Of a stretch of DNA of 22,710 bases, positions 4,841-21,753 are shown piece after piece. Position 1 is the first letter of the stretch. Each line of letters begins with the position of its first letter. Made by a program: the position numbers and the translations under genes. The notes below the pieces were generated by a model that worked only from the letters and a program-made list of their open reading frames with translations, was not told the origin of the DNA and did no database searches. This DNA comes from a virus. The DNA lies in the IMG/VR virus record IMGVR_UViG_3300017710_000063, positions 1 through 22,710 of that record; one strand, 5' to 3'.

Positions 4841-5191
4841 ATGGCAATCAAAGCACCCGCTTGGTGTGAACACGCAGTTCCCACCGCAAATGGTTGGGAA
4901 GATCCCGTAACTGGTGAATTGTTCAAGTCTGGTGGATTCACACCCGAACAAATCGCAGAGTTTCACGGTGTAACCGCACCACAAAAAGAACCCGAAGTAC
5001 TGGTAGAAGTACCTGTAAACGACTTTGAGAAAGAACCAGTTCAAACTCTTACCGAAGCACCAGTAGGTGGTAAGTCTCTCGAAGAGATGAGTAAGATTGA
5101 ACTAGAAGCACTAGGTCGTACCCACGGTATTGAATTGGATCGTAGAAAATCCAAAGCATCACTTGTAGAAGAAGTCAAAGAAGTACTCTAA
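4841..5191 (+). CDS. Phage protein with HeH/LEM-like C-terminal domain
   Basis: This 116-residue protein starts at ATG 4841 behind an AAAGG. Residues 1-42 (from APAWCEHAVPTANGWEDP to TPEQIAEFHG) form an N-terminal module I have seen in other marine phage proteins. Residues 45-75 are a Pro/Glu/Val-rich linker. Residues 78-116 (KSLEEMSKIELEALGRTHG, then IELDRRKSKASLVEEVKEVL) have the two-helix pattern of HeH/LEM or SAP-like domains, which often sit at the ends of phage head-associated or DNA-contacting proteins. It is the last gene before the hairpin at 5204, so it probably closes the head-type unit. The exact role is unknown. Confidence 0.6.
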   Translation: MAIKAPAWCEHAVPTANGWEDPVTGELFKSGGFTPEQIAEFHGVTAPQKEPEVLVEVPVNDFEKEPVQTLTEAPVGGKSLEEMSKIELEALGRTHGIELDRRKSKASLVEEVKEVL

Positions 5192-5203
5192 AACAATTCG
5201 TGT

Positions 5204-5242
5204 CAACTGAGTGGGTATATATAAAATGAACCCACTCAGTTG
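5204..5242 (+). promoter_or_regulatory. 13-bp perfect inverted repeat enclosing a late-promoter-like box
   Basis: CAACTGAGTGGGT (5204-5216) pairs perfectly with ACCCACTCAGTTG (5230-5242) around a 13-base AT-rich loop. The loop holds TATATAAAAT, close to the late box TATAAATA. There is no T-run after the stem, so this is not a classic rho-independent terminator. It separates the head-type genes from the glycosyltransferase cassette, whose first ATG is at 5260. A transcript starting just after the box would carry only the right arm. Confidence 0.55.
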
Positions 5243-5259
5243 TATACGGAATTGCTCAT

Positions 5260-6213
5260 ATGTTAAAGTTCTATGTTCTCTGGACAAGAGACATCGATAA
5301 CCTCAAACGATCTACATCAATCATCCCCAAAGATCAACTCATAGTAATAATAAACTCACAGGACAACCTGAATGTCTCGGTGGGTGTACAATACTGCTCA
5401 GATAATCAAATAGAATTTCAAGTGACCAAATCAGATGGTACCCCTGCCACTGGTAAGAACTCCGTACTAAAACATTTTATCAATAATCCAGATGCAACCT
5501 ACATGGTGGCAATTGATGGAGATGACTATCTGACTCCGTATGGGGTGAAGGTGTATCAAGAACTTGCAGATCATCCTGAACCACCTGATATGGTCGTGTT
5601 GTACAGACAGTTGGGATTGAATGGTGGTGATTCATCTCTCTTTGATAAACCTCACGCAAAGCAAAGAATACCTGATGTTTATCTTCCATCCTTTCCTTTT
5701 GATAAGAGTATAGATGTAGGTCTGAATTACAAATCATTATATGAAATGTTTAGGGGATGGCAGTATAACGAGACCCACGAGAATGCACATAGATGGGCAG
5801 AAGATAGGGTTGAGTTACAGGAGATAGTAAGAACACTGATGGAATCTTGGGAGGCAATGTGTCGTATGGTCTGGCATTCCAAAGAAGTGGCAAAGGTTAT
5901 GCACTACGACAATTCGATCATTGTCGGAGAAGATACCCTACAGTTCTTGAAGTTGAAAAAGATTGCATTGGTGAACCAGTCACTAAGAATCTATCGTAGA
6001 AAAGAGAGGAACATACCGACTTACATTTACGATAATAGTGATGATAAAGATTCTGTGATGGGAGAGAGGAGATATGACTGGGACTGGATGAGACCATTTA
6101 TTGATGCTATACATAATGATGTAGACTACAAGGACTTTCCGAAATATGCGAGTCTACCTGAATTTTTAGATGATGACTGGACACGATCTTGGATAAACAA
6201 TGCAATTAACTAA
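5260..6213 (+). CDS. GT-A-type glycosyltransferase (family 2-like)
   Basis: The protein has 317 residues. The N-terminus alternates strand and loop as in a nucleotide-sugar-binding Rossmann-like domain (MLKFYVLWTR, later QLIVIINSQ). Residues 59-72 (DGTPATGKNSVLKH) correspond to the segment before the DXD motif in GT2 enzymes. Residues 83-90 (VAIDGDDY) supply the metal/nucleotide-sugar-binding DXD. The C-terminal half is helical, rich in Trp and Tyr, and not diagnostic. The expected reaction is transfer of a sugar from a nucleotide sugar to an unknown acceptor in the cytosol, such as a virion protein, host surface glycan or modified base. It heads a set of overlapping genes and overlaps the next one by 14 bases. 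The fold assignment is fairly safe; substrate and acceptor cannot be read from the sequence. Confidence 0.7.
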   Translation: MLKFYVLWTRDIDNLKRSTSIIPKDQLIVIINSQDNLNVSVGVQYCSDNQIEFQVTKSDGTPATGKNSVLKHFINNPDATYMVAIDGDDYLTPYGVKVYQELADHPEPPDMVVLYRQLGLNGGDSSLFDKPHAKQRIPDVYLPSFPFDKSIDVGLNYKSLYEMFRGWQYNETHENAHRWAEDRVELQEIVRTLMESWEAMCRMVWHSKEVAKVMHYDNSIIVGEDTLQFLKLKKIALVNQSLRIYRRKERNIPTYIYDNSDDKDSVMGERRYDWDWMRPFIDAIHNDVDYKDFPKYASLPEFLDDDWTRSWINNAIN

Positions 6214-6559
6214 AGACAACCTTACACTATTTGCCGCTCAACACTATCACAATCCCATGTGTATTGACGGTGAAGAATTTCACAAAGATTTAAAGAAATT
6301 CAAATATGTGAAACGACTACTCAATCGGTACAGAGATACTGGGGTGTTGTCCGAGAGACTCATTCTCAATCACCTCATAGTAATATTCAATGTCTTTGGT
6401 TACGAAGCAGGACTGGACATCCTAGAACTCAAAATAGAACTTGACCAGTGGGGTGCACTCAAACCATTCCTCATATACCTACAGGCAATCAAGAACACCG
6501 AGTACACTAATATAGTGATGGACAAGACTGTAATTGAGGCACTACGAAACTTGACATGA
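6200..6559 (+). CDS. Conserved T4-like phage protein of unknown function
   Basis: This 119-residue, mainly helical protein has a recognisable core: FAAQHYHNP, then EEFHKDLKKFKYVKRLLNRY, then LSERLILNHLIVIFNVFG. I know this pattern from hypothetical proteins of marine T4-like phages, where it is widespread, but no function is established to my knowledge. It has no membrane segment, cofactor motif or Cys cluster. It overlaps the glycosyltransferase by 14 bases upstream and the first CxxCxxCC gene by ATGA downstream, so it is made with that cassette. In other phages this family often lies near structural or late genes, so membership here may reflect transcription timing rather than shared function. 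Confidence 0.65.
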   Translation: MQLTKDNLTLFAAQHYHNPMCIDGEEFHKDLKKFKYVKRLLNRYRDTGVLSERLILNHLIVIFNVFGYEAGLDILELKIELDQWGALKPFLIYLQAIKNTEYTNIVMDKTVIEALRNLT

Positions 6560-7014
6560 TTGTTCCAACTGAACCAAGGTGTGGGGATTGCACTGTGTGT
6601 TGTGAAATTGAAGGATTTACTGGTGAATGGTCATGTACAGACAAGTATAACGAAGCAGAAAAGTTTGGTGTAAAGTATGATCCATTTCAGACTTGCAACA
6701 AACTTTGTGACACAGGGTGTTCTATCCAAGAAAACAAACCTCGTATCTGTAGTGAGTTCTTCTGTTCTTATATCGAACACGATTTAGATGAAGTATATTA
6801 TCCAAAGAACTCTAGGTTTGTGGCACACATTGATTTAGATATGAATCCTGATTTAATTGTTATTATCTCAAAAGACATGACCCTACCACCAGAGATTCAA
6901 TATGATAATAACAAAAAACTTTTGGATGATCTCGTTGAGGAAATACAGGTTTGTGAAGGGAGAAGGTTTAGAGTACAATTCATAACCAAACAAGGGGATA
7001 TGTTGTTACGATGA
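6556..7014 (+). CDS. YkgJ-family CxxCxxCC metal-binding protein, copy 1
   Basis: This 152-residue protein has the family signature at residues 9-16 (CGDCTVCC) and the second Cys cluster C47, C51, C55, C65 and C70 in the arrangement CNKLCDTGCSIQENKPRICSEFFC. This is the pattern of the CxxCxxCC zinc/iron-chelating domain (YkgJ, UPF0153, PF03692), a family with little direct biochemistry. Copy 1 has an additional Cys27. The N-terminal domain is followed by about 70 residues with the motif TLPPEIQYDNNKKLLDDL. It overlaps its neighbours on both sides by ATGA. The metal (zinc or iron) and role are unknown: metal delivery, a redox partner, or part of a modification enzyme are all possible. It is one half of a tandem duplication with the next gene. 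Confidence 0.85.
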   Translation: MIVPTEPRCGDCTVCCEIEGFTGEWSCTDKYNEAEKFGVKYDPFQTCNKLCDTGCSIQENKPRICSEFFCSYIEHDLDEVYYPKNSRFVAHIDLDMNPDLIVIISKDMTLPPEIQYDNNKKLLDDLVEEIQVCEGRRFRVQFITKQGDMLLR

Positions 7015-7496
7015 TTGTTCCAACTGAACCAAGGTGTGGGGATTGCACTGTGTGTTGTCATATTGCAGGATTTACTGGTGAATGGTCATACACGGATAAG
7101 TATAACGAAGCAGAGAAGTTCGGTTTACAGTTTGATCCAATGCAGACTTGTAATAAACTCTGTGACACTGGATGTTCTATTCAAGAAAACAAACCTCGTA
7201 TCTGTAGTGAATTTTTCTGTGAGTATGTGAAGCAGGATTTAGACGATCAATACTACCCCAAGGATTGTGGATTCATGGCAACTGTCAATGTCCATGATGA
7301 GAATTATCCTGATGCATGGCCCTACCCCGATACAATTACTATACTATCGATGGACAAGACACTACCACCAGAAATACAATATAACAACAATAAACAATTA
7401 CTAGATAATTTGATTGAAGAGATAGAGATAAGTATAGGTAGAAAGTTACCTGTTGAACTTGAAACTAATCAAGGATGGATATATCTAAGGAGATGA
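7011..7496 (+). CDS. YkgJ-family CxxCxxCC metal-binding protein, copy 2
   Basis: This 161-residue paralogue of the preceding protein is identical to it at 63 of the first 70 residues, including all nine family cysteines (9, 12, 15, 16, 47, 51, 55, 65, 70). It differs in having Tyr at 27 instead of Cys, and an insertion of about seven residues near residue 95 (around ENYPDAWPYPD). The C-terminal half has diverged while keeping the TLPPEIQY and NNNKQLLDNLIEEIE segments. It overlaps copy 1 by ATGA, and its stop lies just ahead of the GTG of the asparagine-synthetase-like gene, with AAGGAG between them. Keeping all ligands in both copies argues that both are functional and may form a heteromeric pair. 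That is inference. Confidence 0.85.
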   Translation: MIVPTEPRCGDCTVCCHIAGFTGEWSYTDKYNEAEKFGLQFDPMQTCNKLCDTGCSIQENKPRICSEFFCEYVKQDLDDQYYPKDCGFMATVNVHDENYPDAWPYPDTITILSMDKTLPPEIQYNNNKQLLDNLIEEIEISIGRKLPVELETNQGWIYLRR

Positions 7497-7497
7497 T

Positions 7498-8898
7498 GTG
7501 AGATTTTTTATTTGTAAAGACCCTTCCAAGTTTACCAAACATAGTTACAAACAATATGGTGAATGGTGCTACTACCATGACGATAAGGTATCCGTCTGGG
7601 AGTGTGATGAGTACATGGTTCTATACTCTGGTTACCTAATCGAAGGTGACATAGAGGATGCGTGTGAGAGATGGAGTTTTGATGACGAGAATGGAAACTT
7701 CTTTGCAATCAAACTAACCAAACGACATTACGATATTTCGATTGACTACTTCCAACAGCATAAGATATTTGTGGCACACAAGTATGGTATAGAAATATCA
7801 AATCACATACCATTTATGACCTGTAATAAGTCAGATGTCGTGTCAAAATATCTAGAAGATGTGCAGTGTTTGGAATATAGCAGAGAAGAGAATAACACAT
7901 TCTATAAGCACATCCAAGGGTGGATGCCGAGGTATGATTATCTTGGTGATACCAAGAGAGCACTCGAAGAAGAAAAGTGGAAAGACCTCGAACCACTTGC
8001 TGACTATATCCATGAATGCATGGAGCAACATTCTAATCTGATAAAGTCTCGTTTTAAAAACAGGTTTATCTCTCTGAGTGAGGGAATCGATTCCGCACTA
8101 CAGACTCAGTACTTTCTGGATGACCCGAAGTATATGTACCATGTCACCCCTGCCGAGGCAGGAGATGATGCAATGAAATACAAACAGTTGACTGCCAAAA
8201 AGTTTTCTGATGTATCTCTGGAAGTTCTTGATCTGAGTAAAGGTGTTGATCTACTGGCAGAGCATTTGGTTGACAGTTCAAATCGTGGAGTTGACTTCCT
8301 ACCCACATTTATGCAGTTGGCAAAACTCGACACCAAACCAGACATTGTAGTATATGGTTCAAATGGAGATGAGATGTGCCTTCATAAGTTGGTTCCCTAC
8401 CTTCATTATGTCATGCAGAACAATAGATCGAAACAACCTTCATTGTTAAAGTTACATATTAAGTCTGAGATAGAAAAAAGAAAGCATTTCTATGGTGCAT
8501 CATATACTGTAGGTAAACATAAGAATGCAATGACATATCTGGATGAGTGGTTGGATGAGTGGTTTCGATATGATAAGAGACCCGAATGGGACAGGGCAAA
8601 GTATGATATGCTCAAAGGTTGGTCTCCCAAACTATATAATAGGAACATTACAGTAAACTCAGATGTATTGTGTACCTCATTGTATTGTGATCGAAGGATA
8701 TTCCACGAGATCAAAAAGACACCGAAGAAGTTCTTGTTGGGTGATGCACTGGACACTCCGATTCAGAAGATGTTGTTGAAGAGACATAACTACGAATTTA
8801 TAACTCCACACAAGGATGCTGTACAGGCAGATTACCAAGAGATGAGGGAGAGTGTCTTTGATGCAACTTTCTCCCATGATATTGGACAAAACATATAA
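7498..8898 (+). CDS. Asparagine-synthetase-like protein with altered PP-loop and no glutaminase Cys
   Basis: The protein has 466 residues and starts at GTG 7498 with AAGGAG five bases upstream. Residues about 30-105 look like the class II amidotransferase (Ntn) part of AsnB-type proteins (VLYSGYLIEGDIEDACERW, later IFVAHKYGIEIS). The chain begins MRFF, so the catalytic Cys2 is absent. Residues 191-200 (ISLSEGIDSA) correspond to the SGGxDS PP-loop that binds ATP, with Glu in place of the first Gly. Residues 286-292 (YGSNGDE) match the GADE region of the family. Known relatives adenylate a carboxylate and transfer ammonia, or close a ring as in lasso-peptide and beta-lactam synthetases. Here glutamine hydrolysis is not expected; ATP-dependent amidation or ring closure remains possible. 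It ends the cassette that begins with a glycosyltransferase. Family membership is fairly sure, the reaction is not. Confidence 0.7.
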   Translation: MRFFICKDPSKFTKHSYKQYGEWCYYHDDKVSVWECDEYMVLYSGYLIEGDIEDACERWSFDDENGNFFAIKLTKRHYDISIDYFQQHKIFVAHKYGIEISNHIPFMTCNKSDVVSKYLEDVQCLEYSREENNTFYKHIQGWMPRYDYLGDTKRALEEEKWKDLEPLADYIHECMEQHSNLIKSRFKNRFISLSEGIDSALQTQYFLDDPKYMYHVTPAEAGDDAMKYKQLTAKKFSDVSLEVLDLSKGVDLLAEHLVDSSNRGVDFLPTFMQLAKLDTKPDIVVYGSNGDEMCLHKLVPYLHYVMQNNRSKQPSLLKLHIKSEIEKRKHFYGASYTVGKHKNAMTYLDEWLDEWFRYDKRPEWDRAKYDMLKGWSPKLYNRNITVNSDVLCTSLYCDRRIFHEIKKTPKKFLLGDALDTPIQKMLLKRHNYEFITPHKDAVQADYQEMRESVFDATFSHDIGQNI

Positions 8899-8915: not shown

Positions 8916-8923
8916 TATAAATA
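8916..8923 (+). promoter_or_regulatory. T4-type late promoter box TATAAATA next to a start codon
   Basis: This is an exact match to the T4 late-promoter consensus, in the 30-base gap after the asparagine-synthetase-like gene. If the box occupies -13 to -6, as in T4, transcription would start at 8929, the A of the ATG of the next gene. That would make a leaderless message. No good ribosome binding site lies before that ATG, which fits. Confidence 0.5.
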
Positions 8924-9667: not shown

Positions 9668-10129
9668 GTGCTAAGTGGATTATTAGGCAGTGTATTGGGG
9701 TTTGGAGGTTCTGTTGTTCCTGCTATCACCGATCACTTTAAAACAAAAGCAAACAACAAATTTGAACTCCAGAAGATGGAGAAGATGGCAGAACTCCGTG
9801 CCGCTGGATTTGACCATGAAATAAAAATGTATGAACAGATGGGTGCTGACAAAGAGCATGATCGTCTGATTCAACATGACATCTCAATCAACCAATCAAC
9901 AGGCATTATTGCAGGACTACAGAAGTCTGTCCGACCTGTAATCACCTATGCCTTTTTTGGTCTGTTCTGTGCAATCGAATATACTCTTCTGATGCAAGCA
10001 ATGGAAGAGGGCAAGTCAGTTGCAGAATCAATCAACATCCTATGGGATGATGACACCAAGGCAATCTTTGCCGCCATCATGTCATTCTGGTTTGGTTCTC
10101 GTGCAGTAGAAAAAGCACGGTCAAAATAG
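9668..10129 (+). CDS. 3TM holin (GTA_holin_3TM-like)
   Basis: The protein has 153 residues and starts at GTG 9668 with GAGG nine bases upstream. Segment 1 (about 3-20, LSGLLGSVLGFGGSVVPAI) is hydrophobic. A charged helical stretch follows (about 23-75), then KSVRPVITYAFFGLFCAIEY (86-105), and a last hydrophobic segment near 132-145 (AIFAAIMSFWFGSRAVEK). The SVRPVITY motif, final WFGSR and overall layout match the holin family first described for gene transfer agents (PF11351), which permeabilises the inner membrane so that a murein hydrolase can reach the wall. The likely partner here is the M15 peptidase at 17667, which lies far from it. It is the last gene before the nrd promoter. Confidence 0.75.
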   Translation: MLSGLLGSVLGFGGSVVPAITDHFKTKANNKFELQKMEKMAELRAAGFDHEIKMYEQMGADKEHDRLIQHDISINQSTGIIAGLQKSVRPVITYAFFGLFCAIEYTLLMQAMEEGKSVAESINILWDDDTKAIFAAIMSFWFGSRAVEKARSK

Positions 10130-10142
10130 ACTAAAATATTTC

Positions 10143-10172
10143 TTGACATATACCCCCTTTGTGGGGTATAAT
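10143..10172 (+). promoter_or_regulatory. Perfect sigma-70-type promoter of the nrd operon
   Basis: TTGACA (10143-10148) and TATAAT (10167-10172) are separated by 18 bases, so both hexamers match the bacterial consensus exactly. The expected transcript starts near 10179, giving a leader of roughly 65 bases before the nrdA ATG at 10246. The host polymerase alone should be able to read it. Confidence 0.85.
10149..10170 (+). promoter_or_regulatory. Palindrome filling the -35/-10 spacer (candidate operator)
   Basis: TATACCCC (10149-10156) and GGGGTATA (10163-10170) form a perfect 8-bp inverted repeat with a 6-base centre. It lies exactly between the promoter hexamers and overlaps the first four bases of the -10 box. 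A protein bound here would block polymerase. Related half-sites recur downstream at 10193-10200 and 10224-10231. Confidence 0.5.
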
Positions 10173-10192
10173 AGCATACTTGAAAAAACGAA

Positions 10193-10231
10193 AGGGTATA
10201 TATAATATTACCCTCCGAAAAATTATACCCT
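10193..10231 (+). promoter_or_regulatory. Second inverted repeat in the nrdA leader
   Basis: AGGGTATA (10193-10200) and TATACCCT (10224-10231) are perfect inverted repeats separated by 23 bases, inside the predicted leader between the promoter and the ATG at 10246. The right arm extends as TATACCCTATG, which is repeated exactly at 19614-19624. It could be a second operator or an RNA stem. Confidence 0.4.
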
Positions 10232-10245
10232 ATGGAAAAGACAAT

Positions 10246-12234
10246 ATGACCCTAAAAATTGATAAGAAGAAAGACGACCTACTAGCAGAATACGCAGTAG
10301 GAATGTTAAAAGATTTCTACCTAAATGATTATGAGAAGAGTCCACAAGAGGGTTTCGCAAGAGCAAGTAAAGCATGGAGTAAATACCGATATGAGATGGA
10401 TGATGCATTAGCACAACGTCTCTATGATTATGTCTCAAACAAATGGTTCATGTTTGCATCACCAGTTCTATCGAATGCACCCAATGGACACGACATGAAA
10501 AGCAAAGGGATGCCCATCTCTTGTTTCCTAACCTATGTTCCAGATACCCTAGAAGGATTGATCGGTCACTCATCTGAGTTGAGATGGTTGTCTGTCTATG
10601 GTGGTGGTGTAGGTGGTCACTGGTCAGATGTTCGGACAGTATCCGACATTGCACCGGGACCGATTCCTTTTCTTCATACTGTAGATGCCGACATGATCGC
10701 ATACAGACAGGGTAAGACTCGGAAGGGTTCGTATGCCGCCTACATGGATGTCAGTCATCCAGACATTATTGAATTTCTAAATCTCAGAGTACCTACTGGT
10801 GATGTGCAACGAAAGGCACTGAACCTACACAACGCAATCAACATTTCTGACGAGTTCATGGACTGTGTGTCTATGGGTTTTGATTGGAGTTTGCGAGACC
10901 CCAAGGATGACACTGTAAAAGAAACGATCCCTGCTCGTAAACTGTGGGAACGCATTCTTGAAACAAGATTCCGTACAGGTGAACCATATCTGAACTTCAT
11001 CGATACGGCAAACAAAGCACTACCCCAATCACTAAAAGATAAAGGATTAAAGATTAATGGTTCAAATTTATGCAATGAGATACATCTGCCCACAGATGGA
11101 GACCGTACTGCCGTTTGTTGCCTATCTTCTCTCAATCTAGAGTATTATGATGAGTGGAAAGACACGAGCATTGTTCGGGATATTATTAGGATGTTGGATA
11201 ATGTTCTGGAGTACTTCATCAACGAAGCACCAGACACTATACCAAGAGCAAAGTATTCTGCAAAGCAAGAACGAAGCATTGGACTCGGAGCAATGGGATT
11301 CCATTCCTTGTTACAAAAACATGGAGTCGCATGGGAATCTGAATCGGCAAGAGAGATCAATAAAGTCGTATTCAAACACATCAACTCTGAGGCAGTCGCA
11401 GAGACAAAACTGCTTGCGAAAGAAAGAGGAGAGTATCCCGATGGAGAGGGAACTGGAAGAAGGAATGCCCATCTTCTTGCGATTGCACCTAATGCCTCGT
11501 CTGGTGTGATTCTATCAACAAGTCCTTCTATCGAACCGATGAAGGCAAACGCATATACCCATCGTACAAGAGCAGGATCATTCCTTGTGAAAAACAAGTA
11601 CTTGACTCGACTCTTGGATGAGAAGGGTGAGAACAACCAGTCCAACTGGACATCTATTATCACCAATAAAGGATCGGTACAACATCTACCGTTTCTGACC
11701 GAAGGTGAGAAGGCAATCTACAAGACTGCCGCTGAGTTGGATATGAACTGGGTTGTTACCCACGCATCCGAAAGACAACCCTACATTTGTCAAGGGCAGA
11801 GTGTAAACTTATTCTTCCCATCGGGTGCAGAGAAGTCCTATGTAAATAAGGTACATCTCAAAGCATGGAGAGAAGGACTGAAAGGTCTGTACTATCTCCG
11901 TACCGAAGCAAAGCAACGTGCCGAAAATGTATCGGAGAAAGTAGAACGAGTTGCATTACAAGGTGATACTCGGTCAATCGTCTACACCAAGGGCAACTGT
12001 CCTTTCTGTGCAATGGCAATGGAGGAACTCAAGTTGAGAGGGATTCCATTTGACAAGATTGACCTTGCCGATATTGGCAAGACTGCGAGAGAGGTTACTG
12101 GTCGAGAGGTCAAGACTGTACCGCAGATTTATATCGAAGGTGAATATGTAGGTGGTTATGAAGAACTAATGGCATATCTAGACCGACCATTAGAAACTGG
12201 AGAAACTGACGAATGTCGTGCTTGCGAGGGTTAG
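10246..12234 (+). CDS. nrdA: Class Ia ribonucleotide reductase large subunit with fused glutaredoxin
   Basis: This is the catalytic subunit that reduces ribonucleotides to deoxyribonucleotides for phage DNA synthesis. It has 662 residues from ATG 10246; an upstream in-frame extension runs through the promoter and is rejected. There is no ATP-cone at the N-terminus, so dATP shut-off is not expected. Catalytic residues are visible: C93 (PISCFL), N274/C276/E278 (SNLCNEI), Cys at 291-292 (AVCCLSS) and the radical-transfer pair Y549-Y550 (GLYYLRT). After a charged linker (about 552-572) comes a complete glutaredoxin domain: CPFC at 585-588, TVPQIYI at 624-630 and GG at 636-637. The chain ends DECRACEG, matching the mobile redox Cys pair at the end of standard NrdA. 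The fusion therefore sits between the catalytic domain and its terminal cysteines. It is followed by iscU after 3 bases and then nrdB. Confidence 0.95.
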   Translation: MTLKIDKKKDDLLAEYAVGMLKDFYLNDYEKSPQEGFARASKAWSKYRYEMDDALAQRLYDYVSNKWFMFASPVLSNAPNGHDMKSKGMPISCFLTYVPDTLEGLIGHSSELRWLSVYGGGVGGHWSDVRTVSDIAPGPIPFLHTVDADMIAYRQGKTRKGSYAAYMDVSHPDIIEFLNLRVPTGDVQRKALNLHNAINISDEFMDCVSMGFDWSLRDPKDDTVKETIPARKLWERILETRFRTGEPYLNFIDTANKALPQSLKDKGLKINGSNLCNEIHLPTDGDRTAVCCLSSLNLEYYDEWKDTSIVRDIIRMLDNVLEYFINEAPDTIPRAKYSAKQERSIGLGAMGFHSLLQKHGVAWESESAREINKVVFKHINSEAVAETKLLAKERGEYPDGEGTGRRNAHLLAIAPNASSGVILSTSPSIEPMKANAYTHRTRAGSFLVKNKYLTRLLDEKGENNQSNWTSIITNKGSVQHLPFLTEGEKAIYKTAAELDMNWVVTHASERQPYICQGQSVNLFFPSGAEKSYVNKVHLKAWREGLKGLYYLRTEAKQRAENVSEKVERVALQGDTRSIVYTKGNCPFCAMAMEELKLRGIPFDKIDLADIGKTAREVTGREVKTVPQIYIEGEYVGGYEELMAYLDRPLETGETDECRACEG

Positions 12235-17670: not shown

Positions 17671-18131
17671 GACTAAGTAAAAACTTTACACTCAAAGAGT
17701 TCACCAAGTCTATGACTGCGACTCGTTTGGGTATCGACAACACACCCCAAGATGAACACTTGGTTAGTGCGGTGGCATTGTTCGAGAACTGCGTACAGAA
17801 GGTTCGAGAACATTGGGGCACTACTCGTATCAGTTCGGGATACAGAAGTCCTGCATTGAACGAAGCAATTGGTGGTTCTACGACATCACAACACAGTAAA
17901 GGTCAAGCAGTTGACTTTGAGTGTGATGGTACAGACAACCTAGAAGTCGCAAAATGGATTAGAGATAATCTAGACTTTGATCAATTGATCTCTGAGTTCT
18001 ACGAAGAAGGTGATCCGACATCTGGTTGGATTCATCTATCCTATGTGAGTCCAGAAGAGAATCGTAACCGATGCTTGACTGCACAACGAGTAGATGGTAA
18101 GACACAATATTCAGTTGGTCTGCCCGAATGA
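17667..18131 (+). CDS. M15-family D-Ala-D-Ala peptidase, probable endolysin
   Basis: The protein has 154 residues. The zinc site of the M15A (PF08291) family is visible: H76 in SQHSKGQAVDF, D83 in the same motif, and H123 in GWIHLSY. The preceding segment TRISSGYRSPALNEAIGG (53-70) is the family's substrate-binding loop. Such enzymes cut the peptide stem of peptidoglycan; in phages they serve as endolysins or virion murein hydrolases. There is no signal peptide, so release to the wall would need the holin (candidate at 9668). It overlaps phoH upstream and the glycosyltransferase downstream by ATGA. Confidence 0.9.
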   Translation: MRLSKNFTLKEFTKSMTATRLGIDNTPQDEHLVSAVALFENCVQKVREHWGTTRISSGYRSPALNEAIGGSTTSQHSKGQAVDFECDGTDNLEVAKWIRDNLDFDQLISEFYEEGDPTSGWIHLSYVSPEENRNRCLTAQRVDGKTQYSVGLPE

Positions 18132-18958
18132 ATCTAATCTACCAATACATGATCACCAACGAGGAGACCGATAAACGAGGCAAAGTGCCTCAGTATCCCC
18201 AAGGCACTCGTGGTGAACTGTATCGGAGAACTGCCGACCTATCTGCCAAGTCATTCCAAATCTATGCAGATAAGATTGGTTGCACCCACCACTATTCTAC
18301 CAAGCAAGTATACACCAAGAACTTCAATGGGTCAACTGTATTACTCTTTGAATGTCTGCGAATGATCTATGACCCGATGTACGATGATTTCGACAAGGTG
18401 GCATTCATCGACTCAGACATCATCTGTAATACCGAGGAAAATGTGTTTGACCAGTGTGGTGACTACGAGGTCACAGGTGTCTTTGAATCAGAGATAAGAT
18501 CAGATACCGAAGGTGGATATAACAGTTGGGACTACAGTGACAAGATCAAACAACAACTGATTACCAAGTTAGAACGCAATGGTATGCCAATCGTGCCCAC
18601 CGAACCACCGTACAGACCTTCTTGCGTACTGACATTCAATACTGGTATGTTGGTGTGGACTAAGGAAGCAAGACTCAAGGCAAGAGAAGTATTTGACCCT
18701 TGGTACAGTTATATGATGGATGGTGACGAACACGGTGATCCCTTCTGGATCAACAATGACCAACCATTCATTTCTGGTCAGTTGACCAAACACGGATTCA
18801 AGATTCAGAGTATCGATCAGACTTGGAATGATACTCCGACCCATTATAAGGATGATCGTGGATATGACCAGAACTTCCTGCATTATACTGGTGGTGGCAA
18901 TAAGGTCACTATGCTAGAAGACTATAAAAAAGGCAAATTTAAATATCTAAAACCTTGA
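18128..18958 (+). CDS. GT8-like glycosyltransferase
   Basis: The protein has 276 residues. The DXD motif is D95-S-D97 in VAFIDSDIIC, preceded by strand DDFDKVAFID as in glycogenin-type (GT8) enzymes. Other family landmarks are FNTGMLVW (170-177), NNDQPF (209-214) and the late FLHYTGGG (250-257), whose His would complete the metal/phosphate site. The enzyme should transfer a sugar from a nucleotide sugar with retention of configuration; donor and acceptor are unknown. It is coupled to the M15 peptidase by ATGA. A promoter begins three bases before its stop, so it ends its unit. A second GT8-like gene starts at 22178, with only loose similarity. Confidence 0.8.
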   Translation: MNLIYQYMITNEETDKRGKVPQYPQGTRGELYRRTADLSAKSFQIYADKIGCTHHYSTKQVYTKNFNGSTVLLFECLRMIYDPMYDDFDKVAFIDSDIICNTEENVFDQCGDYEVTGVFESEIRSDTEGGYNSWDYSDKIKQQLITKLERNGMPIVPTEPPYRPSCVLTFNTGMLVWTKEARLKAREVFDPWYSYMMDGDEHGDPFWINNDQPFISGQLTKHGFKIQSIDQTWNDTPTHYKDDRGYDQNFLHYTGGGNKVTMLEDYKKGKFKYLKP

Positions 18959-19979: not shown

Positions 19980-20801
19980 ATGGCAGACCTGAGAGACATC
20001 GAAAGAGTTCGATGGAGAGGTACTTGGGGTGTAGGTGACTTTATGTTGGCATTGAATGTCTGCCACAACTATGCCTACCGCACCAAGAAACAAATCCATT
20101 TGGAGATGCACTGGGAGACTGATGAAGGTCACCTAGAGACTCCTGACGACCCCGAAACTATTGTTGAACGAATGACTTGGATTCATACCAAGTTCCATCG
20201 TCAAGAAGATGTGACAGTTACCCATGTCTATAATTCTGATCTATTTGACTCTGGTAACACTAACGGTATAAAAGAAAAGATACGATTTCATTTTGGTTCT
20301 GGTGCATATAGGAACAAACAATGTCCCCAAGAAATGGACTGGGTATTCAAGAAGGAAGAATATCGAAATCATATCAAGACAAAAAAGATTGCTATATGGA
20401 CACCCACATATAATAGTGAACCACCAAGAAAATGGAAAAGGTTCTTGACAAAAGATGATTGGGGTGATATAATAAGCTCACTGTCTGCGGAGGGTTGGAT
20501 ACCAGTAGAGTTGACCTACAGGACTCCAATCAGAGATGTATACAAACAGATACAAGATGCTGATTATGTTTTTTGTTACGATGGTATGTGGCATTATATT
20601 GCTAAAATGTTTGCTACACCTATATTCATTCCTTCATGGGAAGGTATCACTGGTTACCATTGTCCACAGGTAGTATGTAGACCTAATAAAGAACATACAA
20701 TGAAGTTTGTAGAAAGTTTCACAGAGCAAGGTCACAAACATATGCAATCTAAAGCAGATAGATACTTGAAGAAACTTGGAAAGTTATTTGATGAAAATTG
20801 A
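19980..20801 (+). CDS. GT9-like (heptosyltransferase-type, GT-B) glycosyltransferase
   Basis: The protein has 273 residues. The N-terminus RWRGTWGVGDFMLALNVCHN has the GxGD strand-loop-helix start of heptosyltransferase-type GT-B enzymes. The C-terminal half has KIAIWTPTYNSEPPRKWKRF, then DADYVFCYDGMWHYIAKMF, then ATPIFIPSWEG, which corresponds to the family's donor-binding segment (D-x-G/H followed by A-x-x-x-x-P). GT9 enzymes add heptose or related sugars to LPS core. Here the acceptor could be phage or host surface glycan. The family assignment is moderate because the protein is short and the N-terminal domain is reduced. The gene starts right after the previous stop and overlaps the radical SAM gene by 11 bases. 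Confidence 0.6.
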   Translation: MADLRDIERVRWRGTWGVGDFMLALNVCHNYAYRTKKQIHLEMHWETDEGHLETPDDPETIVERMTWIHTKFHRQEDVTVTHVYNSDLFDSGNTNGIKEKIRFHFGSGAYRNKQCPQEMDWVFKKEEYRNHIKTKKIAIWTPTYNSEPPRKWKRFLTKDDWGDIISSLSAEGWIPVELTYRTPIRDVYKQIQDADYVFCYDGMWHYIAKMFATPIFIPSWEGITGYHCPQVVCRPNKEHTMKFVESFTEQGHKHMQSKADRYLKKLGKLFDEN

Positions 20802-21753
20802 TAGAGCAGTAATAGAGATTAACGGTGGTTGTAACTACTCGTGTACCATGTGTCCCCAAGACATGAGGACAGGTGGTCGTGACAAGAAGTTTCTCAAAAA
20901 GATGAAACTCGAAGAGTTCGAGAAGAATGTGGCAGACTGTGCCAAGCATGGGTTACGAGTTGTCAACCTAGAGGGTAGTGGTGAACCTACTCTCAATAGA
21001 AACCTACCAGAGTATATCAAGATAGTAAAGAAGTATGGGGCAAAGTGCTTCATGTTCTCTAATGGGTATCGTATGCAGGGACAGTTTATGAAAGACTGTG
21101 TTGATGCAGGATTAGACTTCTATCGATTCTCTTTCATCGGATACAGTGCAGAGAAGTATGGTGAGTGGATGCACAACATTGTTGGAGGAAACTTTACTAC
21201 TGTTGTGAATAACATTCGTGAGATGAAGAAGTATGTAGACGAGACAAATGCTGACTGTGTGGTCGCAACCTACCACTTGATTACTGACAACGATAACCTA
21301 AATAGTGAACTCCAACAGTATAAAAAGTTGGTCAACGACCTTGGGGTCAAAACAGAAATTTGGAAGATGCATAACTGGTCTGGTGTATATGAGATCGGTG
21401 CTAACGAAAGAAAAGGAGAAGTCAAAACTTGTGGTAGACCTTTTAGTCCTGATGTCGTTATTCGTGCTGGCGGTCTTGACGGTAATACTGGTGCTGTTGC
21501 GCCGTGTTGCCAAGTCCTCGGAAGAGATGAAGAAGCAGTTCTTGGACATACTAGCAAAAACACCATTGAAGAAATCTGGGAAGGAGAAGAGTACACCAAA
21601 CTCCGTGAGGATCATACCACTGGTAACTACCCTGATTATTGTCGTAGTTGCGACTTCCTTCTTGATGACCCCGAAGTCCTAGTCTACACAAACCACGAAA
21701 GAGATTTAATGAAAATGCATGGAACGGAGTTTGACCTAAACGACTATCGATAA
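20791..21753 (+). CDS. Radical SAM protein with SPASM-type C-terminal domain
   Basis: The 320-residue protein starts at ATG 20791, inside the end of the previous gene. The [4Fe-4S]-binding CxxxCxxC is C14, C18 and C21 (GGCNYSCTMCPQ). NLEGSGEPTLN (59-69) is the SAM-binding GGEP-like motif, and FMFSNGYRM follows as expected. After the barrel, C214 (VKTCGRPF), C239 and C240 (APCCQVLG), then C284 and C287 (YCRSCDFL), together with VLGHTSKNTIEEIWE, form a SPASM/twitch domain that holds auxiliary Fe-S clusters. SPASM enzymes usually modify peptides, while some relatives act on sugars. No short precursor-peptide gene with an obvious leader is seen beside it, but two small genes follow (21772, 21996). 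It sits among glycosyltransferases. The phage IscU could supply clusters; that link is inference. Confidence 0.88.
   Translation: MKIDRAVIEINGGCNYSCTMCPQDMRTGGRDKKFLKKMKLEEFEKNVADCAKHGLRVVNLEGSGEPTLNRNLPEYIKIVKKYGAKCFMFSNGYRMQGQFMKDCVDAGLDFYRFSFIGYSAEKYGEWMHNIVGGNFTTVVNNIREMKKYVDETNADCVVATYHLITDNDNLNSELQQYKKLVNDLGVKTEIWKMHNWSGVYEIGANERKGEVKTCGRPFSPDVVIRAGGLDGNTGAVAPCCQVLGRDEEAVLGHTSKNTIEEIWEGEEYTKLREDHTTGNYPDYCRSCDFLLDDPEVLVYTNHERDLMKMHGTEFDLNDYR

Follow-up and report, generated by a model that had tools for sequence, protein, structure and literature searches.

A small gene for a CxxCxxCC protein and a neighbouring gene for a protein resembling AsnB together form a conserved unit that recurs as a two-gene module in viral contigs, and it is described here from the linear IMG/VR fragment IMGVR_UViG_3300017710_000063, a 22.7 kb stretch (hereafter, the window) of a T4-like marine phage. 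In the window the unit spans positions 6556-8898 and has two CxxCxxCC copies, C1 and C2, followed by the AsnB-like gene. We tentatively favour the reading that the pair is an accessory module of T4-like marine phages, which may modify a phage or host protein by means of carboxylate activation and metal chemistry. The initial annotation had placed the pair in a cassette of five coupled genes, together with a putative glycosyltransferase and a gene now recognised as DUF7207. All five open reading frames (ORFs) were confirmed at the coordinates claimed (5260-8898), as was their coupling: glycosyltransferase and DUF7207 overlap by 14 bp, DUF7207 and C1 by 4 bp and C1 and C2 by 4 bp, and one base separates C2 from the AsnB-like gene.

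Loci were gathered by single-protein searches, which gave 9 and 26 viral loci, and by profile searches, which gave 62 and 45; the sets overlap widely, and the 117 AsnB-like copies in these redundant loci were reduced to 25 clusters (90% identity). Of these clusters, 21 have a CxxCxxCC gene adjoining the AsnB-like gene, upstream in 20 and downstream in one (L067; L numbers are our labels for loci), and the two genes overlap by 4 bp in 16 clusters. In L032 the CxxCxxCC gene lies upstream across a gap of 277 bases. The 21 clusters include three (L062, L079 and L090) in which the pair occupies a second, different gene neighbourhood. The AsnB-like proteins of this second neighbourhood form one clade in the protein tree (support 100), which also holds those of L085 and L088; the CxxCxxCC tree is short and long-branched, and is weak for judging co-descent. 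Other phages have a single group-I CxxCxxCC copy, and a diverged group-II copy frequently stands before it.

The other two genes do not belong with the pair. DUF7207 was found in 489 phage records, mostly of cyanophages, and belongs to the gene backbone of T4-like marine phages. The phage collection holding these records gave no match to C1 or to the AsnB-like protein. The backbone order reads gene 4841, a variable slot, DUF7207, none, one or two CxxCxxCC genes, the AsnB-like gene, a gene for a 203-residue protein and, further on, nrdA and nrdB. The slot is empty in some loci; in others it is taken up by a glycosyltransferase-like gene, by a desaturase-like gene and one further gene, or by radical SAM and glycosyltransferase genes together. 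In Phage C48C1 (Kyanoviridae), the nearest annotated phage record met, the glycosyltransferase, DUF7207 and 203-residue protein genes are consecutive, which constitutes an empty site for the pair. This empty site, the spread of DUF7207 and the varied slot show that the glycosyltransferase and DUF7207 are independent of the pair, and the five-gene cassette was therefore rejected. Independent movement of the genes, which the initial annotation had named as the finding that would speak against a system, was thus seen for these two genes and not for the CxxCxxCC and AsnB-like genes, although each of the latter also occurs alone. What remains of the cassette is a module of two genes, next to a backbone gene and to a slot whose content can be exchanged. 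A defence system was also considered and rejected, as PADLOC gave no match except a weak one to DUF7207 (E 0.006). As a separate observation, the slot of L042 (3008-4715) holds a desaturase-like protein, recognised by eye and with no Pfam match, and a protein of 326 residues.

A different explanation, which we consider rather unlikely, is that the five genes share position and expression only, the stretch from an upstream hairpin to a downstream late promoter being an insertion hot spot for unrelated enzymes. The variable slot and the empty site in C48C1 agree with it, and so does the exchange of the AsnB-like gene in two phage groups (L109-L112 and L119-L122), where the CxxCxxCC gene is followed by a different ORF encoding a 2-oxoglutarate (2OG)-Fe(II) oxygenase (L109 6468-7190, PF13759; L119 6435-7172, by close similarity). 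The hot spot would also account for a sharp discontinuity within the AsnB-like gene itself. L003 and L004 lack C1 and C2, and L003 lacks the glycosyltransferase as well; their AsnB-like protein is 93% identical to that of the window. Over the first 120 nt of the AsnB-like gene the DNA identity to L003 is about 59%, and from nucleotide 7678 on it is mostly 93-100% (average >98%); this shift is a recombination breakpoint. However, a collection of unrelated insertions fits poorly with the second neighbourhood, where the CxxCxxCC and AsnB-like genes stand in the same order and again overlap by 4 bp.

The two boundaries reported for the cassette (Table 1) probably belong to its neighbours. The hairpin was correctly described as a 13-bp inverted repeat; its arms (5204-5216 and 5230-5242) are perfect, it lacks a T-run, and none was found in 20 Markov-simulated sequences, which places it above chance. 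In several relatives hairpins of unlike sequence were seen by eye directly 3' of the equivalent upstream gene, so the hairpin probably ends the upstream gene 4841-5191. The late-promoter box TATAAATA is present as claimed, and taken alone it is not significant, at least two copies occurring in 22 of 100 shuffles. It lies 13-14 nt 5' of the next gene's start in 23 of 23 distinct relatives, and is therefore very probably the promoter of that following gene; as the cassette's own promoter it was rejected. The cassette thus sits between two borrowed boundaries.

Table 1. Coordinates of the genes and other features within and around the module
Feature	Coordinates	Strand	Remarks
Inverted repeat, 13 bp, perfect, 13-base loop	5204..5242	+	Between gene 4841-5191 and the glycosyltransferase gene
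Putative glycosyltransferase, GT-A/GT2-like	5260..6213	+	DGDD and GED motifs; occupant of the variable slot, outside the core
DUF7207 / phrog_407	6200..6559	+	Conserved backbone gene, outside the core
C1, CxxCxxCC (group I), 152 aa	6556..7014	+	Eight invariant Cys; core of the pair
C2, 161 aa	7011..7496	+	Tandem duplicate of C1
AsnB/beta-lactam-synthetase-like protein, 466 aa	7498..8898	+	GTG start, lacks Cys2; core of the pair
Recombination boundary	7498..7680	+	Identity shift relative to L003, inside the AsnB-like gene
TATAAATA late-promoter box	8916..8923	+	Right boundary; true start of the next gene at ~8929

The AsnB-like protein was related to AsnB by structure and profile comparisons. 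PF00733 (Asn_synthase) gave no match in the window (E<=10) or in 13 relatives (E<=1). A Foldseek search with the structure model returned beta-lactam synthetase, human ASNS and E. coli AsnB as the leading PDB matches, with carbapenam synthetase lower (best E 3.7e-4, prob 1.00; template modelling score 0.34-0.44 for the leading matches, N domain of low confidence), and an AsnB-type fold is in our view supported by the model, not proven. Comparison of the AsnB-like profile with a profile of 15 AsnB proteins aligned LSEGIDS with LSGGLDS and YGSNGDEM with SGEGSDEV (P = 2e-5 to 1e-4), indicating a PP-loop and a GDE-type motif in the variant forms LSEGxDS and YGxNGDE; the alignment required a cleaned AsnB profile and realignment switched off. 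We grade the sequence evidence for the relationship as moderate. The original AsnB-like call is upheld to this extent, through the fold search and the profile comparison only. All 24 AsnB-like relatives aligned have K or R as residue 2 and none has the catalytic Cys2, which argues that glutamine use by this protein is unlikely. Cys6, present in 23 of the 24, leaves some room for a cleaved propeptide; it is an unlikely exposed nucleophile and is missing in L084. AsnB-like relatives were met in viral contigs only, with none among the cellular genome contigs.

Both C1 and C2 carry the CxxCxxCC motif, as CGDCTVCC, and they are recent tandem copies, with 188 of 210 bases identical across the first 70 codons. 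In an alignment of 11 proteins from two subfamilies, cysteines 9, 12, 15, 16, 47, 55, 65 and 70 of C1 are invariant, and these eight make up the CxxCxxCC and downstream cysteine signature of PF03692. Relatives are matched by PF03692 above its cut-off (1.9e-7), L072 passing with 32.1 bits against a cut-off of 23. The phage CxxCxxCC profile also matches alphaproteobacterial CGDCTVCC proteins at E-values down to 1.6e-11, which are optimistic as these proteins were preselected by the motif; the likeness spans the second cysteine block and an RPDxSG stretch. Judged from these sequence comparisons C1 and C2 are members of the YkgJ/PF03692-type family, in line with the initial annotation, and they probably hold an Fe-S cluster or Zn through the eight invariant cysteines. 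The structure model of C1 is poor (predicted local distance difference test score 56). A related precedent is FliB, which binds a [4Fe-4S] cluster and methylates flagellin lysines, and whose cysteine motif resembles PF03692 (PMC8598068).

Weak CxxCxxCC-like matches were also observed in the cultured cyanophages S-ShM2 (L203 4917-5501) and S-P4 (L206 3965-4528), neither gene having a Pfam match; that of S-P4 overlaps an adenine methyltransferase gene. We do not claim that a cyanophage CxxCxxCC-like gene stands beside a 2OG oxygenase, as the neighbour in S-ShM2 is annotated as ferrochelatase and had no Pfam match.

AsnB-like enzymes without a glutaminase form amides or lactams in beta-lactam and lasso peptide biosynthesis. 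On the favoured reading, the AsnB-like enzyme, with a PP-loop-type ATP site and without the N-terminal Cys that supplies ammonia, would adenylate a protein or peptide carboxylate, and free ammonia or a substrate amine would attack it to give an amide or a lactam. The CxxCxxCC protein would carry out, or assist, a step on this substrate that depends on a metal; some phages would pair it with the 2OG-Fe(II) oxygenase in place of the AsnB-like enzyme. The action would presumably fall late in infection. An amide or lactam placed on a protein is proposed because of these beta-lactam and lasso enzymes, the setting among head genes described below, and the precedent of the nitrilobacillins, in which an asparagine synthetase (AS)-like enzyme works with iron enzymes on a ribosomal peptide (PMC13060819). 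Lasso-peptide cyclases and the AS-like enzymes TsrC and PesC, which act on ribosomally synthesised and post-translationally modified peptides (RiPPs), have been placed in the AsnB superfamily (PMC13060819).

The CxxCxxCC protein could itself be the RiPP-like substrate or carrier, modified by the next enzyme, whether AsnB-like or 2OG oxygenase. It is small, tandemly duplicated and the common partner of two unrelated enzymes. Against this role, it has a large conserved C-terminal region, as expected of a metalloprotein and not of a precursor peptide, and its cellular relatives have no AsnB or AsnB-like gene in the fetched flanks (<=8 kb each side); we regard it as improbable. It is more doubtful still that the AsnB-like protein makes a small metabolite, such as an amino-acid amide or lactam, and not a modified protein. 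The likeness to beta-lactam and carbapenam synthetases speaks for a metabolite, as does a phage acyl carrier protein (L088 5091-5312; PF00550, 1.4e-5) two genes upstream of the AsnB-like gene, but no recognised pathway genes adjoin it in the other settings.

A role in sugar chemistry was also weighed. The AsnB-like enzyme would then amidate a uronic acid while the glycosyltransferase attaches a sugar to the host envelope or lengthens one there, thereby blocking superinfection. Pelagimyophages bear many glycosyltransferases that are thought to alter the host O-chain (PMC7029224), and the window has a weakly GT8-like gene at 18128-18958. The slot protein itself has invariant DGDD and GED motifs and is a weak GT2 match (PF00535, best E 0.023, matched in 2 of 9 members). 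However, many AsnB-like loci have no glycosyltransferase, C48C1, L109 and L119 have a glycosyltransferase and no AsnB-like gene, and no recognised sugar-pathway genes adjoin the pair in the second neighbourhood. Modification of a surface sugar is, in our estimate, unlikely.

Phage head or virion proteins are the most likely substrates for protein modification by the pair, given that genes for such proteins recur around the AsnB-like gene. In L085 the genes that directly follow it encode the head-tail adaptor, head closure and sheath stabilizer proteins. A motif like that of T4 head-targeting peptides opens 22 of the 64 genes of the second neighbourhood, some of them right beside the AsnB-like gene or the pair, compared with 0 of 441 bacterial ORFs. 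The motif used was an N-terminal peptide of about 10 residues ending in a glutamate cleavage site, modelled on the IPIII sequence. Because the 64 genes were drawn from related loci, they do not count as independent, and the comparison set was bacterial and not phage; the enrichment therefore indicates a phage head signal and not a functional link to the pair. The second-neighbourhood genes near the pair are probable genes for head-internal proteins. Head-targeting peptides have been described for T4 (PMC9026906), and phage virion proteins can bear modifications such as methylation (PMC13288928). A more specific proposal is that phages modify their own head-internal or virion proteins with a glutaminase-less amide- or lactam-forming enzyme and an Fe-S CxxCxxCC protein, a 2OG oxygenase being exchangeable, and that the added group is carried into the next host; stated in full, this is a speculative and unlikely proposal. 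In the window itself, the 587-residue protein of 465-2228 has an N-terminus (MKTIKQILAE) that resembles the T4 capsid targeting sequence, and it is probably head-internal.

Several points weigh against the favoured reading. The AsnB-like protein has no meaningful sequence match in Pfam, NCBIfam, PHROGs or PDB, hhalign failed against E. coli AsnB alone and against the first AsnB profile with default realignment, the PP-loop reads SEG and not SGG, and the N-terminal third was modelled poorly. C1 and C2 of the window fall below the curated cut-off of PF03692. The neighbourhood search suggested by the initial annotation, which found the two genes adjacent in most clusters and in two neighbourhoods, also found AsnB-like genes without a CxxCxxCC gene in L003, L004, L068, L077, L085 and L088 (L068 and L077 being in the second neighbourhood, L085 and L088 in further settings); the partnership, though strong, is therefore not an obligatory one. 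Gene neighbourhood by itself does not tell function from common timing, and metal type, catalysis, substrate, timing and partnership are what we infer.

Among the remaining genes of the window, nrdA, a nifU-like gene and a 2OG oxygenase gene lie 3' of the gene set, and nrdB-like and phoH-like ORFs were recognised by eye and by gene order. The nrdA ORF (10159-12234) extends into a glutaredoxin-like C-terminus (thioredoxin-domain PHROG, residues 590-675). A Radical SAM/SPASM gene at 20776-21753 (PF04055, 3.5e-15; PF13186, 8e-10) adjoins a gene for a 273-residue protein (19980-20801) and is near the weakly GT8-like gene, suggesting a second island of modification or sugar genes. Near the AsnB-like gene, radical SAM proteins are encoded in L068 (8061-9713) and L080 (1765-3324, minus strand), both with matches to a B12-binding domain, and similar proteins were recognised by eye in L076, L078, L081 and L090. 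In the viral contig L059, a TctA-type transporter-like gene (9918-11366; by eye, no PHROG match) follows a TATAAATA box.

The AsnB-like family is nameless in the sequence libraries and has no relative in the cultured-phage collection searched. Nothing was found in the literature on C48C1 or DUF7207, and, from their titles and abstracts, the YkgJ papers do not seem to concern this pairing; as the initial annotation had supposed, no description of such a system was found in the literature and databases searched. If virion or injected proteins are modified, RiPP-type chemistry would extend to phage particles, and PF03692 proteins, whose role is mostly obscure, would gain a testable partner.

Compared with known systems, the window shares with the pelagimyophages (PMC7029224) a T4-like marine phage background and a glycosyltransferase-like gene placed in a variable region, whereas its own gene is GT2-like by motif and weak matches only, and is not tied to the pair. 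With PF03692 (YkgJ) the phage proteins have in common the CxxCxxCC motif and four further invariant cysteines, and relatives exceed the Pfam cut-off; they differ in that they have about 150 residues, the window copies miss the Pfam model, and metal binding, shown for FliB, is a prediction here. AsnB, beta-lactam synthetase and carbapenam synthetase are among the leading fold matches of the AsnB-like protein, and their PP-loop-like and GDE motifs follow each other as in that protein. Unlike that superfamily, the phage protein shows no recognisable sequence similarity beyond ~100 residues, has SEG for SGG and lacks Cys2, and it was met here in viral contigs only, partnered with a CxxCxxCC gene. 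The nitrilobacillin pes cluster likewise combines an AS-like enzyme with iron enzymes, one of which is alpha-ketoglutarate dependent. However, PesC accepts both glutamine and ammonia, the iron enzymes of the cluster are of the MNIO and alphaKG-HExxH types and not CxxCxxCC proteins, and the precursor peptide of the pes system has no recognised counterpart in the phage loci.

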